From IMG/VR virus record IMGVR_UViG_3300020467_000031, positions 1 through 27,771 of that record: 27,771 nucleotides of DNA; one strand, given 5' to 3'. A program made the position numbers and the translations under genes. This DNA is from a virus. Position 1 is the stretch's first letter. Every line of letters begins with the position of its first letter. The notes under the pieces were generated by a model that was not told where the DNA came from, made no database searches, and saw only the letters and a list, made by a program, of their open reading frames with translations. This document shows positions 210 to 19,674 of this stretch, piece after piece.

Positions 210-629
210 CTAGTATGATTTCGCTTCGAGAGGATAAGTTTCGATTCTCTTTTCAAGCGTGTGAGAAACTGCGAGCGTCTCTTCCTCGCCTGTCTCAATG
301 CCTGTGGTCGCTTTCTTGGTTTGGCAACCTTTTTGGAGTGATGTATCCAGTTTGGTATATTCATGTTCCTGTAGTATTCTTATATTATAGAGTTGATTGA
401 TACAAACATTGATTGCTCTACCCTCTGCATTGCAACCGACACACACACTCATGTACCCACCTGATACAAATGAGATCACACCACAGTCAGGTTTGCTTGG
501 TTGCATCACACCATTGAGACAAAGAAAGCACTCAACTATGTCTCCAACCTTGAACTCTCCTATCTCCCAACGAGGGTCTAGATCTTGATTCCCATAGTTC
601 TCTGGTCTAGGTGGGTGCGGTATCGCCAT
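210..629 (-). CDS. small cysteine-rich hypothetical protein
   Basis: This 139-residue protein begins MAIPHPPRPENYGNQDLDPR and I do not recognise its function. The segment around residues 20-50 (W.IGEFKVGDIVECF..) looks like the start of a small SH3/KOW-type beta-barrel (FKVGDIV pattern). Seven cysteines occur, including C-x2-C pairs in ECFLC and in VCVGC, so metal binding or disulfides are possible. The C-terminal third is charged and polar. It starts at an ATG that overlaps the plus-strand ATG at 628 on the palindrome CCATGG. A sigma70-like promoter (652-680) lies directly upstream, and no clear Shine-Dalgarno sequence is visible. It lies beside a probable peptidase gene, away from the tail operon. 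Confidence 0.65.
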   Translation of the reverse strand: MAIPHPPRPENYGNQDLDPRWEIGEFKVGDIVECFLCLNGVMQPSKPDCGVISFVSGGYMSVCVGCNAEGRAINVCINQLYNIRILQEHEYTKLDTSLQKGCQTKKATTGIETGEEETLAVSHTLEKRIETYPLEAKSY

Positions 630-651: not shown

Positions 652-680
652 AGTATAGATAATATTATGAAATTTGTCTA
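652..680 (-). promoter_or_regulatory. sigma70-like promoter for the gene at 210-629, lying across the start of the divergent gene
   Basis: On the minus strand TAGACA (680-675, 5 of 6 to TTGACA) is followed by 17 bases and TATACT (657-652, 5 of 6 to TATAAT). Transcription would begin about 15 bases before the ATG at 629. The site overlaps the ATG at 667 of the plus-strand gene, so opposite transcription could interfere. This is a sequence match only. Confidence 0.4.
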
Positions 681-1635
681 CTGGGGTGCTGTAAATAGTG
701 GTAGTGACCACTTGAACAGAATGTTTGAGTTCAATGAACGACAACATGTGTTCTTCACTAATAGTACCTATAAATTTGATAGATATATTTATCCAGAACC
801 TAAGAAACAAGAGTGGTATCACTATTACAAACCACGAAATGAAAACAAATTAGTTAGAGTATTATATAGAACAACTAGGGTAAAAAACCCTTTGAAAGAG
901 GAATCATATAGTTATATGGAAAAATATAATTTTGTAGATCATAGAACCACAGAATTTTATAAAAATAAAACTATCACAGACAGTTCTGATAGACGAGGAT
1001 TGGATAAACTAATCACTAATATTGATGATTATGAACCATTCTTGAATCATGCACCAAATACATGGGAGTTTGCTTTAGACGATATGTTTGATGGAGAGAT
1101 ACTCATAAGACCACATCATCTATTAGGTATCGTAAACTATCAACGAACATATATTACTACAGCAAAAATAATATCACTACTCAAAAATACCACGAATATC
1201 GTGCCTTACAAAGTAAACATCATTGATAGTATGATAAGTAAATTGAATATGTTTGACCCACCAAAGCAATCTAAGAAATATACGAAACAAACTGGTAGAC
1301 CTGTATTTTTCAAGACAATAATAGACGCATATAAAAGGGATAAAGAGATCGTGTGGAATCATCTAGACGATTTTACTAAACAGCAAAGAGATATAGAACA
1401 AGCATTACAAGACTATAATATACCTTACGATTACATGAACCTTGATGAGGACGATTATAGTCAGTTTGGTTGTAAAATTGTTTTAGATAAAAAATACTCA
1501 CACCCGAATTTTGATTCAGATAATCCAGTTGTAGAGCATAAACGTAAGATGCTTGAGGATATTGCAAATGAGTATGTGACAGTTCGTGGATTGACAGACA
1601 CTCGTTTATCTGGTAGAATAACCGACATGATATAG
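667..1635 (+). CDS. paralogue 1 of an unknown pair flanking kdsB; possibly sulfotransferase-like
   Basis: The open frame extends up to an ATG at 628, but I choose the ATG at 667 (322 residues). From there the N-terminus MKFVYWGAVNSG lines up with MKYTYFGGVKSG of the gene at 2340, whereas the 13 residues before it have no counterpart. Two further blocks match that paralogue: NIVPYKVNIID near residues 177-187, and a C-terminal YNIPYDYMNLDEDDY near 250-264. I do not know the family for certain. A short N-terminal beta strand followed by G-A-V-N-S-G, and a later segment with a D-x3-S spacing (IDSMIS), are weakly like the two PAPS-binding motifs of sulfotransferases, but the usual Lys/Arg-Ser-Gly-Thr is degenerate. 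The kdsB gene follows after 6 bases. No convincing promoter was found for this plus-strand cassette. Confidence 0.7.
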   Translation: MKFVYWGAVNSGSDHLNRMFEFNERQHVFFTNSTYKFDRYIYPEPKKQEWYHYYKPRNENKLVRVLYRTTRVKNPLKEESYSYMEKYNFVDHRTTEFYKNKTITDSSDRRGLDKLITNIDDYEPFLNHAPNTWEFALDDMFDGEILIRPHHLLGIVNYQRTYITTAKIISLLKNTTNIVPYKVNIIDSMISKLNMFDPPKQSKKYTKQTGRPVFFKTIIDAYKRDKEIVWNHLDDFTKQQRDIEQALQDYNIPYDYMNLDEDDYSQFGCKIVLDKKYSHPNFDSDNPVVEHKRKMLEDIANEYVTVRGLTDTRLSGRITDMI

Positions 1636-1641
1636 TACCAC

Positions 1642-2343
1642 ATGTATCAAAACAAAAAAATTATCTGTGTTATCCCTGCTAGATTGGGTTCTAGTCGATT
1701 TCCTAATAAACCACTTGCTAAGATCAAGGGTAGAGAAATGGTGCTGAGAGTGGCAGATATAGCAAAGCAGTCTGAGTATCTTGATGGAATAATTATTGCA
1801 ACTGAAGATAAGATCATACAAGATTTAGCAAATGAAAATGGTTATGACAGTATAGTTACCTCTTCACACTATACATGTACTCATAGAGTTGCTGAAGTCG
1901 CTGGAGATCTGCTGGCGGATTTTATTTTCAACCTGCAAGGTGACGAACCACTCACCGACCCGAAATGGATTGACGATATGATACGATATGGTGTTGATAA
2001 TAATATAGACGTACTTCAATCATCTAGAGAACTAGAACCAGAGGAGATAGAGGACGAAGATGTTGTCAAAATGATTTTGAATAACGGGGTTGTCACTCAC
2101 ATGCAGAGAAAATGTGATGTGATATGTGATAATATTGTCACTCAGTTAGGATTATACATGTATAAGAAAGATGTGATCGTGGACTTTCCTAATTGTGATA
2201 TGACATTTGTTCAGTATTGGCATGGTCTCGATACCATAGGATTCTGTGGTAAGTATGATGTAGTGCCATTTGATTTGAAATGTGGCAAAGTCAGAGCAGT
2301 TGATCGCCCACATCATATAGACGAAGTAGAAGAGCAATTATGA
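1642..2343 (+). CDS. kdsB: CMP-Kdo synthetase-like cytidylyltransferase
   Basis: This 233-residue protein fits 3-deoxy-manno-octulosonate cytidylyltransferase (KdsB), which joins CTP and Kdo to make CMP-Kdo in the cytoplasm for lipopolysaccharide or capsule synthesis. Visible signatures are the N-terminal nucleotide loop IPARLGSSRFPNKPLAKIKG (residues 11-30, with R14, R19 and K23), the THRVAE segment near 80-85, the metal-binding QGDEP at 99-103, LGLYMYKKDVI near 169-179, and AVDRPHHIDEVE at 219-230, whose Asp221 matches the second metal-binding Asp of E. coli KdsB. It is slightly short for the family (about 245-250). The usual FSR..IP segment is altered to MQRK, and the EQLR segment is replaced, so a different 2-keto sugar acid is possible. 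Its stop overlaps the next ATG (ATGA). Confidence 0.85.
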   Translation: MYQNKKIICVIPARLGSSRFPNKPLAKIKGREMVLRVADIAKQSEYLDGIIIATEDKIIQDLANENGYDSIVTSSHYTCTHRVAEVAGDLLADFIFNLQGDEPLTDPKWIDDMIRYGVDNNIDVLQSSRELEPEEIEDEDVVKMILNNGVVTHMQRKCDVICDNIVTQLGLYMYKKDVIVDFPNCDMTFVQYWHGLDTIGFCGKYDVVPFDLKCGKVRAVDRPHHIDEVEEQL

Positions 2344-3161
2344 AATATACCTATTTTGGCGGTGTCAAAAGTGGTAAGTTTTTTATCAGAAGTTTATTCC
2401 AATATAATCAGAAGTCTTACTCACTTTTAAATGCAGGTTACATTCCATTTACTATCATAACGAAACCATGTGGTAATGGTTATCACTCATACGAATGGAA
2501 TTGGGAAGATAAATTTTCACACGAACTCAAGAGTTGGTATGAAGTAAGACATTTAGAAACTATAGACGAAGTATTGTCTCAAAGATCGGAGAACTCTGGC
2601 ATGAGTTTTGCTGATAAAAATAAGTTTGCTAAGTTTCCAGTAAATTTATATAAAATGTTTTCACGAATATATGAGTCAGATATAGTAGTCAACCCACTTA
2701 CATCATTAGGATATTGCTCTGGTGTTGGTAGCAGGGAAATGAATTGGAATATGAGAATGAGACGACCACCAATGAATGTAGATTTGGAATATAGTTTAAA
2801 CGAACTTAGGAATAGATGTAATATCTTAGTATATAAAGAAAATTTGTATGATTGGGTTCATAACTTTTTTCTTGAGGGTTCTACAAAAGTATTAGAAGAA
2901 CGAGGAGAAGATGGATATGTTGAATTTATCACGAATAATATCAATGAATCACGAAGATTTGAAAAATACTTGAAAAATTTGCTAGAGTACTATAAAATAC
3001 CTTATGAGACCTTTAGTCTTGACACAGGAGATTATTGTAAAACTTTCGGATTGAGTAAAAGTATAGATATATCATTGCATGATAATCGTTTCACCTTTCT
3101 ACCTCACATACTACGAGAAAAAGCAAAAACATGGACGGAAAATTATCTACTGAATCACTAA
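2340..3161 (+). CDS. paralogue 2 of the unknown pair flanking kdsB; possibly sulfotransferase-like
   Basis: This 273-residue protein is related to the one at 667. Shared blocks are MKYTYFGGVKSG (1-12), NILVYKENLYDW (161-172) and YYKIPYETFSLDTGDY (217-232). The segment IVVNPLTSLGY (115-125) also lines up with ILIRPHHLLGI of the paralogue. The GGVKSG turn near the N-terminus is compatible with a phosphosulfate or phosphate-binding loop, and NILVYKEN sits where sulfotransferases have their RNP motif, but Ser and Pro of that motif are absent. I therefore keep the function open. The gene starts by ATGA overlap with kdsB and its 3' end overlaps the next gene by 31 bases, so the four cassette genes are probably co-translated. 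Confidence 0.75.
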   Translation: MKYTYFGGVKSGKFFIRSLFQYNQKSYSLLNAGYIPFTIITKPCGNGYHSYEWNWEDKFSHELKSWYEVRHLETIDEVLSQRSENSGMSFADKNKFAKFPVNLYKMFSRIYESDIVVNPLTSLGYCSGVGSREMNWNMRMRRPPMNVDLEYSLNELRNRCNILVYKENLYDWVHNFFLEGSTKVLEERGEDGYVEFITNNINESRRFEKYLKNLLEYYKIPYETFSLDTGDYCKTFGLSKSIDISLHDNRFTFLPHILREKAKTWTENYLLNH

Positions 3162-3976
3162 AATTATTTTCTGATGCAAAACGAATTGCATTGATAGGTA
3201 ATGGTGGTAATCTTGCTATCGCTCAACACATGGCAAGTGATATCTATCGTCACACTGGTAAATTTTGTTTTGCTCCTGATAGTATTAGTCTTACTGCTTT
3301 AGGTGGTGATGGAGATTGGAAACACGAATGGATAAGATATGCTAATAAAGGTGCTGATCTTATCATAGGTATCACTTGTCGTGTCAATAGTCCTCTCACA
3401 CAAGAATTGGAAAAAATATCAATCACCGCACCCTATGGTGGTTCAACAGAAACACTACTCATAGCACCAGATAAACATGAAACGATAGAAACGATTGTAA
3501 TTGATGCGACACACTATCATCATTTTGAAGTGAAAGCTTTATCAACAATATATGAAATAATGGAACAGACTGGAGTTATATTACCAGAACTACCCAAAGT
3601 TGTACAAAGATATAATGATGTAACTGAGAAAAGAGACGACATATACTGTATTGATATTGATGGTACATTGACTGAACCTCATGATGGTAGTCCATGGGAT
3701 GCTATACCAAGAAGAGATCGTATTAAAAAAGTAAATAAACTATATGAGGATGGTTCTACAATATATCTTATGACTGCAAGAGGATTTATTCATAGTACTG
3801 GTAGGTATCCAGATGACATAAATTGCCAACAACGTGAAGCAGATTATCATTGTAGATCAAGAACTGAAGCACAACTTGCTAGTTGGGGTGTAAAGTATCA
3901 TAAGTTATTCTTTGGTAAACCAAGAGCAAACAAATATATTGATGACCGAGGCATACATGATAGTGATTTCTTTTAG
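3131..3976 (+). CDS. fusion of GmhA-like SIS sugar isomerase domain and HAD phosphatase domain
   Basis: The protein has 281 residues and two domains. Residues 1-155 are a SIS domain close to sedoheptulose-7-phosphate isomerase (GmhA): GNGGNLAIAQHMASDIY at 23-39, SISLTALGGDGDW at 51-63, and a C-terminal helix HHFEVKALSTIYEIME at 130-145. Residues 168-281 are a HAD phosphatase: DIDGTL at 175-180 supplies the nucleophile and acid/base Asp pair, MTARG at 214-218 is motif II, and FGKP (261-264) plus IDDRG (270-274) give the motif III Lys and motif IV Asp pair. SIS and HAD enzymes act in both heptose (GmhA/GmhB) and Kdo (KdsD/KdsC) nucleotide pathways, so beside kdsB this is probably a two-step sugar-phosphate enzyme. 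The N-terminus is shorter than in GmhA. Its stop overlaps the stop of the opposing gene. Confidence 0.8.
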   Translation: MDGKLSTESLKLFSDAKRIALIGNGGNLAIAQHMASDIYRHTGKFCFAPDSISLTALGGDGDWKHEWIRYANKGADLIIGITCRVNSPLTQELEKISITAPYGGSTETLLIAPDKHETIETIVIDATHYHHFEVKALSTIYEIMEQTGVILPELPKVVQRYNDVTEKRDDIYCIDIDGTLTEPHDGSPWDAIPRRDRIKKVNKLYEDGSTIYLMTARGFIHSTGRYPDDINCQQREADYHCRSRTEAQLASWGVKYHKLFFGKPRANKYIDDRGIHDSDFF

Positions 3977-4977
3977 AGTTTATTGTAAAGGTCTGATACT
4001 ACCTGTGAACATTTAGAATTATACGTTTTTTCAACCTTTTCCTTTAAGTAGAGGTAAGCATTTTCATATTCACTCTGGATCGGTGATCCAAACCTACCAT
4101 CAATTATAAAATGATTATCAAAAAGGTCTTGGTATAATACTTCTGGTGACTTTATAACATCAAGACCCAACATTTTACTTGTTAGAAACTTTCTGTCCTG
4201 CTGGTGAAGAGTGTCCCACTTCTCCGTGAGATGAAAAAATTCTTTTTGTATATCATTCAGATAATCATATCCCCACTTCAGATATAATAATACTGAGGAA
4301 CCAAATCTTTCTTGTTCATGTGGTTTCTTAGTTCTATACTTTGTGATGTCATCATAGACATGTACCTGCCGATCTAAGAACTCAGCATAATATACATCTG
4401 TACCTGGCCATGGTATAAAGATATGCTCATGTTGTAACAAGAGTGTTGCTAATGTATATTGTCTCGTTTCTGGATCAGACATCTGGATGACGGTGCTGGA
4501 TTCACCCAGGTTCAATTTATCCCAATGCTTCCATATGTCACAACTACGCCATGGTACTAAGAATGTAATAGGTCGTGGTGCATCATCTATAATACGTTGT
4601 ACACTTTCATATTCTTCCTCTCTTATGGTACATTGATCATCTCTAGGTAGAAAAAATAACGATCCAGCAGGTAAAGCATAAAACTCTGGCGTATTCTCTT
4701 GAGCATATGCTATCTTACCAAGTTCCCATAAAAAAGGTGCTGTACCGTAATATGGTACGACACCTCTTTGTTGATTTACCAGTCTCTTGTAGTGATAATC
4801 AGACCAAGCATATACTTTATTGCTATTGAATGTACCTTTCTTAGTATAAAGGTAATCATTCCTACCTAATGCTTCTCTGCATACACCTGGTAGAATGCCA
4901 AAATCAAAAAAGGTACCTTGGTTCAATCCAAGATACCTACACATGGTATGATGCCACTTATCTGATCTATCTGCCAT
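3973..4977 (-). CDS. GT-B-like glycosyltransferase candidate
   Basis: This is a 334-residue soluble protein without signal peptide or membrane segment. Residues 104-208 carry the best clue: AGSLFFLPRDD (104-114), an acidic-aromatic stretch, PITFLVPWRSCDI (136-148), then HEHIFIPWPGTDVYYAEFLD (183-202) followed by RQVHVYDD. This resembles the nucleotide-sugar half of GT-B-fold polysaccharide glycosyltransferases, in which a strand ends in a G-T/S turn followed by a YA..LG helix. I infer transfer of an activated sugar, fitting the CMP-sugar and sugar-phosphate enzymes next door on the other strand. The acceptor cannot be told. The start is the ATG after a short A-rich spacer following the fibre-region gene at 5000. 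The gene converges on the plus-strand cassette. Confidence 0.6.
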   Translation of the reverse strand: MADRSDKWHHTMCRYLGLNQGTFFDFGILPGVCREALGRNDYLYTKKGTFNSNKVYAWSDYHYKRLVNQQRGVVPYYGTAPFLWELGKIAYAQENTPEFYALPAGSLFFLPRDDQCTIREEEYESVQRIIDDAPRPITFLVPWRSCDIWKHWDKLNLGESSTVIQMSDPETRQYTLATLLLQHEHIFIPWPGTDVYYAEFLDRQVHVYDDITKYRTKKPHEQERFGSSVLLYLKWGYDYLNDIQKEFFHLTEKWDTLHQQDRKFLTSKMLGLDVIKSPEVLYQDLFDNHFIIDGRFGSPIQSEYENAYLYLKEKVEKTYNSKCSQVVSDLYNKL

Positions 4978-4999: not shown

Positions 5000-5530
5000 T
5001 TAGTAACTTCCCTCCGTTGTTACACCTGCTCTCACAAAAGTTTGATGTTTATTTTTTAAGAATTTATCTGCTCTTGGGAATGGTGGTGTCAAACCTGCTT
5101 CCCTCAGTGCCTTATGTCTTGCCTTTCTATCGTCTCCTTTTTCATATAAATCAAAGAATCCTTGTCTTTGTGGTTTCTTACCACTCAATCTAGTGGTCTC
5201 GCCATACAGAGATACAGTCCAAATATTAGATGCTGGTACATTTATTTGTACAGTTTTTCTCTCATCTGGTTTTGTTGGATCGAACTCAGAAGTTGATATT
5301 CCAGCAGCATCAAATTCTCTTGCAGTCCATTCAACCCATGCAGCAGTCGGTGCAGTAGAACCAAATCCAACATTATAAGTTGGAATTCCCTTTGTATTAG
5401 ACACGAAATTTACCTGCTGGTTATTTCGTATCATTTGACCACCATTACCATTAGTCTCTATGGTAGTGGCATAACCATCACCAATGGCTGTCAAATGATC
5501 ATTTTGGTAATTTCCTTCTGAAGTAATCAT
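5000..5530 (-). CDS. hypothetical small protein at the end of the fibre cluster
   Basis: This is a 176-residue protein of unknown function. The N-terminal half is rich in Asn, Gly and Thr (for example ETNGNGGQMIRNNQQVNFVS), like the beta-rich fibre proteins before it. A middle segment VQINVPASNIWTVSLYGETT looks like beta strands. The C-terminal 60 residues are basic and helical (KGDDRKARHKALREAGLTPP), which is unlike a fibre. It could be a fibre-associated structural protein or a fibre assembly factor; neither can be shown. The start is an ATG 18 bases after a weak late-promoter-like GATAAAAA that contains the stop of the previous gene. No Shine-Dalgarno sequence is visible. Confidence 0.65.
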   Translation of the reverse strand: MITSEGNYQNDHLTAIGDGYATTIETNGNGGQMIRNNQQVNFVSNTKGIPTYNVGFGSTAPTAAWVEWTAREFDAAGISTSEFDPTKPDERKTVQINVPASNIWTVSLYGETTRLSGKKPQRQGFFDLYEKGDDRKARHKALREAGLTPPFPRADKFLKNKHQTFVRAGVTTEGSY

Positions 5531-5548: not shown

Positions 5549-5556
5549 TTTTTATC
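5549..5556 (-). promoter_or_regulatory. weak late-promoter-like box for the gene at 5000-5530
   Basis: The minus strand reads GATAAAAA, two changes from TATAAATA. The stop TAA of the gene at 5552-5956 lies at the same position in the box as in the stronger promoters of this array. The ATG follows after 18 bases. On its own the match is poor; its placement is the main support. Confidence 0.25.
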
Positions 5557-5956
5557 TACCGTCCCAGTCACCATTCATTGATGAGTCGGTAGTAGTACGA
5601 GCAAAAGCGACTGTTTTTGTGTTCTCCACAAGAATTGCATCTACATCATAATCATCTAACAAACCTTTTTCTAGTAAGATTTGTACCAAACCTACATTAG
5701 AAATATCAACAGTACTTTGATCAATTGGGTGCCATAATCTATGATGAGTATAATCTGATACCGTACCATAATCACCATTCACTGCATTTGCATAAATGGT
5801 ACGAGAATGTTCTACCACATCAGTTGGACTTGCTGTAAACGAGACATAATCTGAATCAGTAATTTCAGCAAAATTAACTTCTAATGTAATAGCATTTTTA
5901 TCGTCATTTGCCCAAACTGGGTTTCTTGCATCAGTGACTGTAAAATTAACTGCCAT
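5552..5956 (-). CDS. hypothetical small protein in the fibre cluster
   Basis: This is a 134-residue acidic protein, beginning MAVNFTVTDARNPVWANDDK, with alternating hydrophobic residues suggesting beta sheet. A central HHRLWHPIDQ segment and a helix-like VGLVQILLEKGLLDDYD follow. It is not a repeat-type fibre, and I do not recognise the family. In marine myoviruses small proteins of this kind are often found between fibre genes, so a tail-fibre accessory or host-specificity role is an inference from position. It has its own late-type promoter (5978-5985) and a GAAGGT sequence 11 bases before the ATG that could serve as ribosome binding site, so independent late expression is likely. Confidence 0.7.
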   Translation of the reverse strand: MAVNFTVTDARNPVWANDDKNAITLEVNFAEITDSDYVSFTASPTDVVEHSRTIYANAVNGDYGTVSDYTHHRLWHPIDQSTVDISNVGLVQILLEKGLLDDYDVDAILVENTKTVAFARTTTDSSMNGDWDGR

Positions 5957-5977: not shown

Positions 5978-5985
5978 TATTTATG
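5978..5985 (-). promoter_or_regulatory. T4-type late promoter box for the gene at 5552-5956
   Basis: The minus strand reads CATAAATA, one change from the T4 late consensus TATAAATA. The internal TAA is also the stop codon of the gene at 5981-6856. The next ATG is 21 bases downstream. Confidence 0.55.
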
Positions 5986-6856
5986 CAGAACGCATCCAGA
6001 GAGAAGTAGGATAAGCAACTGTAGTGTTTACGTTTACGTTTGTGTTGACGTTCACTGTAGCATTACCACCAACGTTTAAGTTATCAGTAGTTACGTTACC
6101 TGCAACATCCAATCCAGATGTTGTGATACTTGTGTTACCAGCAACGTTCAAACCTGATGTATTTACGTTACCACCAACTCCCATGTTATCAAGAGATACT
6201 GAACCAGAACCAGAGAAGTTACCACCTGCAGTAGCAGCTTTTGAGTCACCAATTCTAGTGTGGTTACCTGTGGATGGAACACCATGAGAGTGTGATGATA
6301 CAGAAATATTACCAGATACGTTTACGTTTGTATTACCTTGGATGTTACCTGAAGAAAGAGAAGAGTTACCTTGAACTTCACCACCTTGCAATGCACCTGA
6401 GACGTTACCTTGAACTTCACCACTTGATAATGATGTGTTACCCTCAACGTTACCAGATATATTACCAGAACCTGAACCTGATCCAGAACCTGAACCTGAG
6501 TTTGTTCTTGGTGACCCTGAGTCATAACCCATGAGTTTCCAAGTTCCACTTGGCGTTACATTACTTGATACTCTACCTGTAGAGTCTGCATAACGTAAGT
6601 TAGAACCTGCTAGAGTTTGACCTGGTTCATATGAGGTATTTCCTGATGCTTGCATCAAGAATCCATATGTTCCTAAGTCACCTGTAGATGAATTAGTATT
6701 CACTGATGCATCTAATGTTAGTGATGCTGTATTAATAGCACTAATTCTTTTATCTGAGTCAACTGTTATAACAGGTATTGCGTTGCTAGAACCGTAATTA
6801 CCTGCTGCAGGGTCAACTGTAACATTAACATTAGCAGCATTTCCGTAAAAAGCCAT
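5981..6856 (-). CDS. tail-fibre-like repeat protein with Gly-Ser linker
   Basis: This 291-residue protein has low-complexity, beta-rich composition and no membrane segment. Residues 10-50 contain AGNYGSSNAIPVITVDSDKR, a module also found in the fibre at 6884-7759. Residues 119-131 are an unbroken Gly-Ser linker. On either side of a short His-bearing stretch (SSHSHGVPSTGNHTRIGD, 187-204) lie Gly-Asn-rich repeats with Val, Ser or Thr (GNVEGN, QGNVSG, VAGNTS, VGGNAT). Such repeats fit trimeric phage fibre shafts. The end AYPTSLWMRSA is a compact aromatic C-terminus. It is expressed from its own late promoter (6881-6888) with a strong AAGGAAGGAG ribosome binding site 12 bases before the ATG. The receptor is unknown. 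Confidence 0.75.
   Translation of the reverse strand: MAFYGNAANVNVTVDPAAGNYGSSNAIPVITVDSDKRISAINTASLTLDASVNTNSSTGDLGTYGFLMQASGNTSYEPGQTLAGSNLRYADSTGRVSSNVTPSGTWKLMGYDSGSPRTNSGSGSGSGSGSGNISGNVEGNTSLSSGEVQGNVSGALQGGEVQGNSSLSSGNIQGNTNVNVSGNISVSSHSHGVPSTGNHTRIGDSKAATAGGNFSGSGSVSLDNMGVGGNVNTSGLNVAGNTSITTSGLDVAGNVTTDNLNVGGNATVNVNTNVNVNTTVAYPTSLWMRSA
6464..6502 (-). repeat. coding Gly-Ser dipeptide repeat
   Basis: This stretch encodes residues 119-131 of the fibre-like protein at 5981-6856, an uninterrupted run of alternating Ser and Gly. It is a likely flexible hinge between the N-terminal domain and the repeat shaft, and a possible slippage site. Confidence 0.7.
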
Positions 6857-6880: not shown

Positions 6881-6888
6881 TATTTATA
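6881..6888 (-). promoter_or_regulatory. T4-type late promoter for the gene at 5981-6856
   Basis: The minus strand carries a perfect TATAAATA. Its central TAA is the stop codon of the gene at 6884-7759. The spacer to the ATG is 24 bases and contains AAGGAAGGAG, a strong ribosome binding site. Confidence 0.75.
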
Positions 6889-7759
6889 CTTCTTGAAGTA
6901 CGAACTTGTATTGCTTACCAGTTCTTCTGTTTTTCAAGAATAGATCGTTCTCACCTTCTTCTATAAGGTATGAACCCCATGTGTTGTCAATGCTGTTAGC
7001 ACCTTTTGCCTCGTTTGATAAATCTAAGTCAGAACTGTAGATGTTTGCCCATCTTGTGCCACTAGCACCGAGGTCTCTAGTACCGTTTGCTTCTGGTAAT
7101 ATATTACCAGTTACAGTAATCAGTGCTTGATCAAACACCGCAACTGTTGAACCGTCAGCAGTAACAGTAACTAATCCGTTTGTACCTGTATCAGTACATG
7201 CAACAGATGTGTTCAACTGTTCAATAGTTGTGCTATCAACTGCAGTTGTGCTTGCCGAAGTCACTTGACCTTGAGCATTTACGACTAGAATAGGTATAGC
7301 AGTAGAACTACCATAAGTTCCAGCCGATACACCTGAGTTTGCAAGGTTACTGCTTGCTAATTTCGTACTCAGAGTGGTTGTGCCTGTTACGGTCAGATCA
7401 CCAATGACCCCTGCATTACCATCAACGTCTAAAGTATCAATATGTGCTGTGCCATCTATGAATAAATCTTTCCATTCTTGACTCGAAGAACCTAAGTCAT
7501 ATGCATTATCTGTATTTGGTATAATATTTGAGTTTACGTCTGCACCAAATACAACGTTATCAGAAGCACTATCTCCTAAAGTAAGTGTTCCACCGTTGAA
7601 GGCAGTAGTTCCAGTCACAGTAACGTTACCACCTACATCTAGGTTAGCGAACATATGTACATTATTCAGAAAGGTAGATACACCAACGTGGGAAGATAGA
7701 CCTGCTATTACCTGTTGATTCTTTCCACCGACCTTTGCTAATTCTCTAGCTCTAGACAT
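6884..7759 (-). CDS. tail fibre protein with the RWANIY/TWG C-terminal module
   Basis: This is a 291-residue beta-rich fibre protein. The N-terminal half has repeats such as VGGNVTVTGTTAFNGGTLTLG and a NAYDLGSSSQEWKDLFIDGT block, both common in phage fibres. The middle has AGTYGSSTAIPILVVNAQG, shared with the protein at 5981-6856. The last 80 residues contain TRDLGASGTRWANIYSSDL and, further on, TWGSYLIEEGENDLFL, ending in a KQYKF..QEV segment. This C-terminal module recurs almost intact in the next gene upstream (7794-9665) and is characteristic of marine T4-like fibres, where it is a candidate folding, trimerisation or attachment unit. The gene has its own late promoter (7791-7798). Confidence 0.8.
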   Translation of the reverse strand: MSRARELAKVGGKNQQVIAGLSSHVGVSTFLNNVHMFANLDVGGNVTVTGTTAFNGGTLTLGDSASDNVVFGADVNSNIIPNTDNAYDLGSSSQEWKDLFIDGTAHIDTLDVDGNAGVIGDLTVTGTTTLSTKLASSNLANSGVSAGTYGSSTAIPILVVNAQGQVTSASTTAVDSTTIEQLNTSVACTDTGTNGLVTVTADGSTVAVFDQALITVTGNILPEANGTRDLGASGTRWANIYSSDLDLSNEAKGANSIDNTWGSYLIEEGENDLFLKNRRTGKQYKFVLQEV

Positions 7760-18579: not shown

Positions 18580-18840
18580 TCAAATATCAGTTGTGCGATA
18601 ATGAGCATGATCATCATCCTCTAAGGAATTTGCATGAATGTGATAGTATGCATTTATAGGACCACCTGCACTATTTCTAATTACAACTTTTGCTCCATAT
18701 GGTATTGATTCAACAAATAACTCTTGAGATACACCAATAGGAGTGAGTTGCACACAAATACTTTCGGGGTCAATCTTACCTACCATGTAATCTGGTAGTT
18801 CAATGATACCATCGATCTTCACTTTTCCACAAGTTTCCAT
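18580..18840 (-). CDS. small paralogue of half of the GPE/LPDY/TPIG structural domain
   Basis: This is an 86-residue protein. Residues 10-70 (GIIELPDYMVGKIDPESICV through LTPIG.SQELFVESI to AYYHIHANS) line up with residues 164-224 of the structural protein encoded just upstream (IELPDYW, SITVQITPIG, CFYHVYGER). It lacks the first half of that domain (FDIKHPT...GPE...RGR) and the N-terminal fibre-like part. It ends in an acidic and His-bearing tail (SLEDDDHAHYRTTDI). A tandem duplication followed by shortening is the simplest explanation. It may be a small structural subunit that packs like the larger one. The coding frame is clean, so it is not an obvious pseudogene. Confidence 0.75.
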   Translation of the reverse strand: METCGKVKIDGIIELPDYMVGKIDPESICVQLTPIGVSQELFVESIPYGAKVVIRNSAGGPINAYYHIHANSLEDDDHAHYRTTDI

Positions 18841-18855
18841 GATTTTTTTCTTTTA

Positions 18856-19674
18856 TTATAATACGGTTTTCGTATTTTGTCCAGTATCGTAGTTAGGATC
18901 CTTAATATTTCTATCTTTGTCAGATGGATCTAATCTGATGTTTGGATCAGGATAATCTTCCCATGTCTCACCTTCATACTCTACTATTAGTGGGTTTATA
19001 TCATTTCTCTCACCATATACATGGTAGAAACAATCAATATCTGAATCAGATTCTAATATAATTTTCTCACTATTGAATGACTTGACATATATATCATCTT
19101 GTTTTCCAATAGGTGTAATCTGCACTGTAATACTATCTTCATACACCATATTCTTCCAGTAATCTGGTAATTCAATCGTATTAGAATCTTTCAATCTACC
19201 TCTATGATATATTGCTACCTCTGGACCTTCGATACATGCATATCTCAGTCTATATCCTTCTTTAGTAGGGTGTTTTATATCAAAAGACTTACCAAGTGCA
19301 TCAGCAGTTCCAAATCTAGAAGCGAGTCTGCCTTTATTATCTCCATCTATCTTACCTGTAACAAATAAATCACCATCAATAACCAAAGCATTTTCTTTTT
19401 GAAAACCTCCACCATCACCTACTATACTTACATCACCTTCAATATCAAGTGCTCTACCTTTCATCTCAGGTTTGAAGTCACCCAATGCTGTGCCCATATT
19501 GACAACACCAAATGCTATTTCGCTATGTGCACCTAAAAATATAGGACCTGTGACAGCAAGAGTACCATCGAAAGGTTTGTCTCCATTCTTTGTCTCTACT
19601 GATTTGTCAAGTTTTTTTGGTTCTTCAGGTCCTATGTAAATTTTACCTGAGTCTAAGTCACGTAATCCAGCCAT
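18856..19674 (-). CDS. baseplate or spike-associated structural protein with GPE/LPDY/TPIG domain
   Basis: This is a 272-residue protein. Residues 1-130 are fibre-like (GTLAVTGPIFLGAHSEIAFG, ALDIEGDVSIVG, ALVIDGDLFVTGKIDG), suggesting a beta shaft. Residues 131-236 form a domain I recognise from many marine phage structural proteins: FDIKHPTKEGYRLRYACIEG, then PEV..YHRGRL, ELPDYW, TVQITPIG and CFYHVYGER. It ends in an acidic Asp-Pro-rich tail with DPNIRLDPSDKDR. The start overlaps the stop of the beta-helix spike gene (TAATG), so the protein is co-translated with hub proteins. A role on the central spike or in a short fibre at the baseplate centre is inferred from that position. Confidence 0.75.
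   Translation of the reverse strand: MAGLRDLDSGKIYIGPEEPKKLDKSVETKNGDKPFDGTLAVTGPIFLGAHSEIAFGVVNMGTALGDFKPEMKGRALDIEGDVSIVGDGGGFQKENALVIDGDLFVTGKIDGDNKGRLASRFGTADALGKSFDIKHPTKEGYRLRYACIEGPEVAIYHRGRLKDSNTIELPDYWKNMVYEDSITVQITPIGKQDDIYVKSFNSEKIILESDSDIDCFYHVYGERNDINPLIVEYEGETWEDYPDPNIRLDPSDKDRNIKDPNYDTGQNTKTVL

Follow-up and report, generated by a model that had tools for sequence, protein, structure and literature searches.

Lipopolysaccharide (LPS)-type gene clusters are known in cyanophages (PMC3037559, PMC2984593). Those of the T4-like cyanophages P-SSM2, S-SM2 and S-SSM7 carry sugar genes, which in P-SSM2 lie near tail-fibre genes (PMC3037559). In pelagimyophages, tail fibres and glycosyltransferases are part of a variable island, the host recognition cluster (PMC7029224). 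In the Bcs3 capsule polymerase of Haemophilus influenzae b (Hib), cytidine monophosphate (CMP) sits in the GT-B domain CroT, and an HAD-like phosphatase is part of the same machine (PMC10299916). Here, we discuss a gene cassette at positions 667 to 4977 of IMG/VR record IMGVR_UViG_3300020467_000031, a viral fragment of 27,771 bases (the whole stretch is referred to as "the window"), and its relation to these systems. The core of the cassette, here called the quartet, consists of a KdsB-like cytidylyltransferase, an SIS domain, an HAD phosphatase and a predicted GT-B-fold protein (GTB). In our view, the quartet is a genuine and conserved module of genes whose product is most likely a CMP-activated sugar, and it is a variant of the known phage sugar-gene clusters.

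The cassette resembles the P-SSM2-type cluster in being a set of sugar genes of a T4-like cyanophage; that cluster includes a relative of HAD, which is annotated as phosphoheptose isomerase, along with a carbamoyltransferase and an epimerase. However, P-SSM2 has heptose kinase/adenylyltransferase-type genes, whereas the cassette has the KdsB-like enzyme, SIS and GTB. Proximity to tail fibres is a likeness to the pelagimyophage island, but here the quartet is fixed, the tail relatives are mainly from cyanophages, and the closest portal proteins are those of cyanophages. With Bcs3, the likeness is structural: among known structures, its GT-B fold with bound CMP matches GTB best, and an HAD-type phosphatase stands alongside. 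In contrast to Bcs3, the parts are separate proteins in the cassette, the Bcs3 donor is CDP-ribitol, and the GTB profile finds no such chain by sequence. No description of the quartet was found in the open-access literature, where no search was aimed at the combination of its parts, and nothing was found naming both "3-deoxy-manno-octulosonate cytidylyltransferase" and "cyanophage". Sugar genes of marine phages tend to be listed singly as "LPS biosynthesis". The quartet, on the other hand, is a defined, testable unit because its four proteins stay together in two distant arrangements, beside fibre genes.

Gene layout of the cassette

The cassette comprises the following genes and domains:

667-1635, plus strand: A, an open reading frame (ORF) and first member of an expandable A/B family, with a P-loop-type fold assigned via family membership only
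1642-2343, plus strand: KdsB-like cytidylyltransferase, divergent on its sugar side (Pfam CTP_transf_3; residue comparison; NCBIfam kdsB models below cut-off)
2340-3161, plus strand: B, second A/B member by its relation to A, with a predicted P-loop-type fold (AlphaFold2 model, predicted local distance difference test score [pLDDT] 94.6)
3131-3976, plus strand: SIS-HAD fusion (ORF)
3131-3604 (residues 1-158, border approximate), plus strand: SIS domain of the fusion (Pfam SIS below cut-off; comparison with Escherichia coli GmhA)
3605-3976, plus strand: HAD phosphatase domain of the fusion (phrog_1238; PDB 9iqw and 1xpj; HAD motifs)
3973-4977, minus strand: GTB, a GT-B-fold protein by predicted fold only, which follows the fibre genes on their strand

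The ORF analysis agrees with the placement of these five genes in a sequence-only reading of the window, including the start of A. This ORF opens at position 628, and 667 is the better start because the relative in contig L006 begins at the methionine of MKFVYWG. A 6-base gap separates A from the KdsB-like gene, which overlaps B by 4 bases. B in turn overlaps the SIS-HAD gene by 31 bases, and 4 bases are shared between SIS-HAD and the converging GTB gene. The latter shares its strand with the tail-fibre genes, which it follows. A and B had been taken for a paralogous pair, and they are related (BLASTP E 4e-6, 22% identity) and belong to one hidden Markov model (HMM) family. Family matches and the predicted fold also support the view that this is a compact glycan cassette, in which a KdsB relative is combined with SIS and HAD parts and with a GT-B candidate. 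Family searches did not place the cassette proteins in non-carbohydrate families, but A, B and GTB gave no convincing match to any sequence family.

Conservation and arrangements of the quartet

KdsB, B and GTB each served as query in scans of viral contigs, and the contigs found were then compared by HMM. In the resulting 45 records (43 from IMG/VR, MH319720 and the window), GTB was found in 45, SIS in 44, HAD in 43 and KdsB in 39; in the six records without KdsB the contig ends within about 2 kb of GTB. The GTB count is uninformative alone, since all 43 IMG/VR contigs came from the GTB scan. In the first KdsB scan, which was not conditioned on GTB, GTB was present beside the cassette in 16 of 16 contigs.

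The scans were repeated with KdsB and SIS alignments, taking one locus per contig and seeking neighbours within 6.5 kb. SIS, HAD, GTB and the fibre-tip gene were near KdsB in 39 of the 51 KdsB-scan loci. Three more were partial: L107 has no HAD in the stretch examined, L112 no fibre-tip gene within 6.5 kb, and L116 ends after SIS. The remaining nine, at 27-39% identity, had none of these four neighbours, and two of them are 4-kb contigs. The SIS scan gave 66 loci, with the full set including the fibre-tip gene in 39 and the quartet without that fibre-tip gene in 11. Among the others, six had only KdsB; three had HAD, GTB and the fibre tip; two had KdsB and GTB; one had KdsB, GTB and the fibre tip; one had KdsB and HAD (its contig begins at KdsB); two had nothing at threshold, one of which (L187) showed a weak KdsB match in another comparison; and one had no SIS ORF. 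The two scans overlap in contigs and several loci are near-copies (e.g., L175-L177), so the independent events are fewer than these counts. The recurrence of the quartet, in dozens of contigs in the KdsB or SIS searches, exceeds chance.

In 127 of 146 loci with both GTB and KdsB (contigs repeated), GTB opposes the direction of KdsB and matches that of the fibre-tip gene. In L083, the fibre genes, GTB, an A/B member, KdsB, SIS and HAD all run in one direction, while in L043 GTB is inverted and overlaps the SIS gene. These differences in placement and orientation suggest that GTB moves with the cassette. Moreover, a second, distant arrangement with the order GTB-KdsB-HAD-SIS in a single direction was present in 11 of the 66 SIS-scan contigs, and the six GTBs compared from it are 23-26% identical to the window GTB. 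L172 and L173, the two distant loci annotated further, lie beside fibre genes; in both, the gene immediately downstream has a match to a tail-fibre connector family. L173 also has an upstream gene that matches tail-fibre families, and the closest relatives of the L173 helicase are from cyanophages.

AG-345-D19 is the only member of a phage collection to match GTB, to match SIS-HAD along most of the protein, or to have KdsB at >60% identity. Genome-contig scans gave no bacterial relatives of GTB or KdsB; with two peptide patterns per scan, this is weak evidence of absence.

Several loci carry additional genes. Near the quartet in L173 (1238-2448) are two tandem genes of one cluster, and the one searched matches a 2-oxoglutarate (2OG)-Fe(II) oxygenase (phrog_81); P-SSM2 likewise has a 2OG-Fe(II) oxygenase near a tail-fibre gene. 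Hydroxylation preceding glycosylation is conceivable for the L173 enzyme. In L166, L167, L169, L171 and L188, a gene for 280-304 amino acids (cluster c28) comes immediately ahead of KdsB, and SIS is next after KdsB in those contigs that extend further. No GTB or HAD was detected in the c28 contigs, some of which look like near-copies, and L165 is cut off at KdsB. Possibly these loci represent a third version of the module with another transferase. A gene for 280 amino acids (cluster c62) lies between HAD and GTB in L102 (7568-8410), L109 (7596-8438) and L110 (6345-7187), and L006 (10383-11012) has an additional gene for 209 amino acids between SIS-HAD and GTB with a weak Pfam match, to DUF6071 only. 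The left neighbours in L002 (3030-6490) are an AAA_5 ATPase gene and a gene for a 736-amino-acid protein without a convincing Pfam match; genes of similar size are found at this place in many other loci.

The KdsB-like enzyme

The KdsB-like protein matches Pfam CTP_transf_3 with E 1.4e-27 and 97.3 bits (cut-off 22.6), which assigns the domain. KdsB is its nearest family, but against the NCBIfam kdsB equivalog it scores 89.7 bits, under the cut-off of 155.2. We compared 33 distinct phage sequences (the window's included, as L072) with E. coli KdsB, whose numbering is used here. P8, R10, R15, K19, R78, Q98, G99, D100, R157, Y185 and D235 are invariant in all 33, among them the residues for cytidine triphosphate (CTP) and Mg binding (P8, R10, R15, K19, R78, G99, D100 and D235). 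The roles of the CTP and metal residues are known from the Aquifex aeolicus enzyme and were carried over by motif reading (PMC3149649). The place of Thr14 is occupied by Ser in 20 sequences and by Gly in the other 13. Hence, the phage proteins share with bacterial CMP-Kdo (3-deoxy-manno-octulosonate) synthetase both the fold family and the CTP/Mg residues.

The sugar side, made up in E. coli KdsB of residues that we take to touch Kdo, departs from that enzyme in 33 of 33 sequences, although R157 and Y185 are kept. The E. coli SGTER is TCTHR in the phage sequences (the second Thr being Asn in three, i.e., TC[T/N]HR), His181 is replaced by Gln in 32, and the 12-residue loop I160-L171 is missing in all. 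In ten distant members the loop is likewise missing, with Ile or Met at 181. The place of Glu210 holds Asp in one alignment but not in another; being alignment-dependent, it was not used as evidence. Together with the lack of any match to a KdsA- or NeuB-type ulosonic-acid synthase in 16 records, mostly fragments, these features suggest that the enzyme probably acts on a sugar acid other than Kdo. The assertion of the sequence-only reading that this KdsB makes CMP-Kdo finds no support in the equivalog score or in the sugar side of the relatives, while its doubt about KdsA and its alternative of another sugar acid look right. Its description of the set as "self-contained" is doubtful, given the missing synthase match and a GTB gene that reads with the fibre genes.

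The predicted GT-B-fold protein

The AlphaFold2 model of GTB has a pLDDT of 84.3 and a predicted template modelling score (pTM) of 0.88. In Foldseek, eight of the first ten rows are glycosyltransferases or the polymerase TagF. The best VIA-align match is 8a0c_B, the CMP-bound Bcs3 Hib polymerase (Z 10.2 over 245 residues). For this predicted model, 49 of 1000 chains reach Z of at least 8, epimerases of the same fold included. The GTB profile retrieved only proteasome rows, at E >1, from the PDB sequences. The GT-B assignment is thus a prediction from fold, with neither a sequence family nor a motif behind it.

The SIS and HAD parts

The SIS domain scores 20.4 bits (E 4.6e-4) against PF01380, under the curated cut-off of 25. 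SIS and HAD are fused in 17 of the 43 records having both and are separate genes in the other 26. Relative to E. coli GmhA, the phage SIS domains keep GNGG or a near form, have Gln-His at positions 60-61 (Met-His in E. coli) and carry Arg at the place of Ser121. In a weak alignment (hhalign E 0.13), the place of Glu65 is Asp in 36 of 37 rows, with one gapped; Glu65 and His180 are presumably the catalytic residues of GmhA. A KdsD/KdsC reading of SIS-HAD was set aside, as E. coli KdsD and KdsC gave just short local hhalign matches. GmhA aligned longer than either, but at low probability.

The HAD domain matches phrog_1238 (E 1.1e-20). Its closest relatives of solved structure are 9iqw, which is named a capsule biosynthesis protein, and 1xpj, which is listed as a hypothetical protein. 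The motif residues D175, D177, T215, K263, D271 and D272 are invariant in eight fused proteins. Among 37 HAD domains, DxD, (T/S)(A/S)R and GKP are present in all, and DDR in 30. For the EcbF-BcbF capsule phosphatase subfamily (TIGR01689), the score is 17.1 bits vs a cut-off of 162. From these sequence features we would expect SIS to bind a phosphosugar and HAD to remove its phosphate.

The A/B family and the variable tailoring slot

The A/B family has 45 distinct members, 42 of which were aligned, with one to six copies per record in 21 of the 45 records. Fold was predicted for B only, and the structure search with B points to a P-loop-type fold, for which kinases and sulfotransferases reach similar Z values. 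None of the Pfam sulfotransferase families was found among the 42 members, the A/B profile had no match in PDB sequences, and matches in a viral structure library were weak, none at E 0.001 or better. The phage collection contained no match to A, B or an L043 A/B member.

Upstream of KdsB, the tailoring genes vary. L005 has an aminotransferase, an amidinotransferase-like protein and an oxidoreductase; L014 an epimerase, a DegT aminotransferase and a carbamoyltransferase; L041 an oxidoreductase; and L054, past an A/B member, a GDSL-hydrolase match under its cut-off. The amidinotransferase-like protein is encoded at L043:2429-3313 and L005:6128-7027, and the Cys of GGLHC in L005 is Arg in L043. 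A gene for 403 amino acids in L021 was considered as a sulfotransferase and rejected, having no PDB match and no convincing Pfam match.

A model for the cassette and its alternatives

Collectively, these data lead us to suggest that the cassette is a phage glycosylation module that makes and transfers a CMP-activated acidic sugar. We give this a probability of roughly 0.62, which covers the CMP-sugar module and not its target. Starting from the observed gene order, conservation, CTP-site motifs and HAD motifs, we infer the identity of the sugar, the order of the steps, its transfer and its sulfation. SIS and HAD would bind and dephosphorylate a host-derived phosphosugar, and the KdsB-like enzyme would use CTP to activate the resulting sugar acid, probably not Kdo. 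The GT-B-fold protein would then transfer the activated sugar. In phages having them, the A/B proteins most likely would add a further group, plausibly sulfate.

Several observations weigh against this model. GTB gave no Foldseek match at E 0.001 or better and no meaningful Pfam match in 30 members or in seven distant members. The (K/R)XHP motif, which characterises CMP-sialic and Kdo transferases (PMC12887879), is present in 0 of 30 GTB sequences and in 0 of 13 in a mixed set. In the weak SIS alignment, GmhA His180 is found in 0 of 37 rows, which makes isomerase activity doubtful. Since relatives of HAD are widespread in other phages, this part is not specific to the module: SIS-HAD as a query matched 153 records, one of them over at least 80% of the query, and the partial matches among those listed cover the HAD half. 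HAD was also missing from the stretch examined in L043, the rest of that contig not having been searched. No A/B member was found in 24 of the 45 records, some of them truncated. Finally, the fibre association of the main clade may reflect only common descent.

What GTB and the A/B proteins do could also be read differently. GTB might be a GT-B-fold epimerase, like UDP-N-acetylglucosamine (UDP-GlcNAc) 2-epimerase, that prepares the sugar rather than transferring it. Such epimerases score Z 9.3, tied with TagF and TarL and within 1 Z of the best row, yet that row is CMP-bound and transferases or TagF dominate the Foldseek list; we regard this as unlikely. A better case can be made for A and B as P-loop kinases of sugars or nucleotides, not sulfotransferases, a possibility to which we would give about one chance in three. 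The top row for B is the P-loop nucleotide-binding protein 3kb2 (Z 8.7), and kinases, adenylate kinases among them, score between Z 6 and 7.4. However, the sulfotransferase Stf0 scores alike (Z 7.8, 183 residues), and its alignment, like those of NST-1, 3-OST-1 and TPST-1, spans residues 1 to 273, whereas most kinases align only to about 240. Least probable among the alternatives is a true Kdo pathway, in which KdsB makes CMP-Kdo from host Kdo with SIS KdsD-like and HAD KdsC-like. Three of the four Kdo enzymes have the fold types of SIS, HAD and KdsB, and KdsB is the nearest family. In addition, Kdo is reported in some other cyanobacteria (PMC4515613), and both kdsB and kdsA are named among the viral genes in a survey of ocean viruses (PMC10653327). 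Plain Kdo synthesis is nevertheless improbable because of the divergent sugar side, the lack of a KdsA or NeuB match in the 16 records (mostly fragments), SIS domains without His180, and the LPS of marine Synechococcus WH8102 and CC9311, for which the review reports neither Kdo nor heptose (PMC4515613); the short KdsD and KdsC matches also speak against it. A kdsB call in a phage need not mean Kdo metabolism.

As to the target, the product might alter the surface glycan of the infected cell and thereby block co-infecting phages. This is a serious contender, at somewhat less than even odds: a host-surface change has been proposed for the P-SSM2 LPS genes (PMC2984593) and for pelagimyophage host-recognition clusters (PMC7029224), and the sugar-tailoring slot is variable. 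On the other hand, GTB mostly reads with the fibre genes, as does the whole quartet in L083, which would fit late expression. Moreover, no polymerase, flippase or lipid-carrier enzyme turned up in the family searches of the window, which were not aimed at them and cover a fragment. We lean slightly toward the phage's own tail fibres because the quartet adjoins fibre genes in both arrangements. A bolder and quite tentative version, which we hold to be improbable in its entirety, is virion glycosylation in marine T4-like phages. Here, the quartet would build a host-foreign CMP-activated acidic sugar that GTB puts on the fibre tips, A/B proteins would sulfate it in some phages, and swappable tailoring enzymes would alter the decoration and so host recognition. 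If the fibres are decorated, host recognition in ocean phages would gain a new layer in the form of phage-made glycans; if the host surface is targeted, phage remodelling of cyanobacterial surfaces to exclude rivals becomes directly testable.

Identity of the phage and its host

The phage is probably a T4-like cyanophage, as judged from its protein matches. For the window tail protein, 147 of 159 matching phage records are named Synechococcus, Prochlorococcus or cyanophage, and for the hub lysozyme 409 of 417. In the nearest relative (a contig of 122 kb), the portal protein shares 75% identity with its AG-345-D19 counterpart and about 65% with those of Synechococcus and Prochlorococcus phages. 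A pelagiphage origin was rejected on the basis of this portal and of the lack of a CsgG match (chosen as a curli marker) in 15 records. Photo_RC photosystem genes were present in 3 of 16 records in one search and in 4 of 14 in another. None was found in the nearest relative of the window, and a cyanobacterial host for the window's own phage is for this reason something that we infer.

Other features of the window

The cassette is flanked by the following genes:

210-629, minus strand: left flank gene with no assigned function; relatives at the equivalent place in many, not all, loci
5000-5530, minus strand: gene of the fibre operon, with counterparts in no contigs but those of the three closest relatives (L002, L006 and L020)
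5552-5956, minus strand: fibre-tip gene (phrog_1795 / phrog_1141 tail fibre)
5981-6856, minus strand: Gly/Ser/Asn/Thr-rich protein in the fibre gene run, a possible acceptor

Most other long genes of the window match T4-like tail families. A search for repeats gave nothing notable, and PADLOC found no match among six window proteins. Promoter-like sites number 32 (shuffle mean 27.8) and terminator-like sites 6 (shuffle mean 2.6, standard deviation 1.4). The tail-fibre gene at 6884-7759 has relatives of 162 to 1265 amino acids in the loci compared, with matches that are often C-terminal and in some cases N-terminal. The neighbouring genes at 18580-18840 and 18856-19674 match the same two families, phrog_17490 and phrog_28536, which suggests a duplication.

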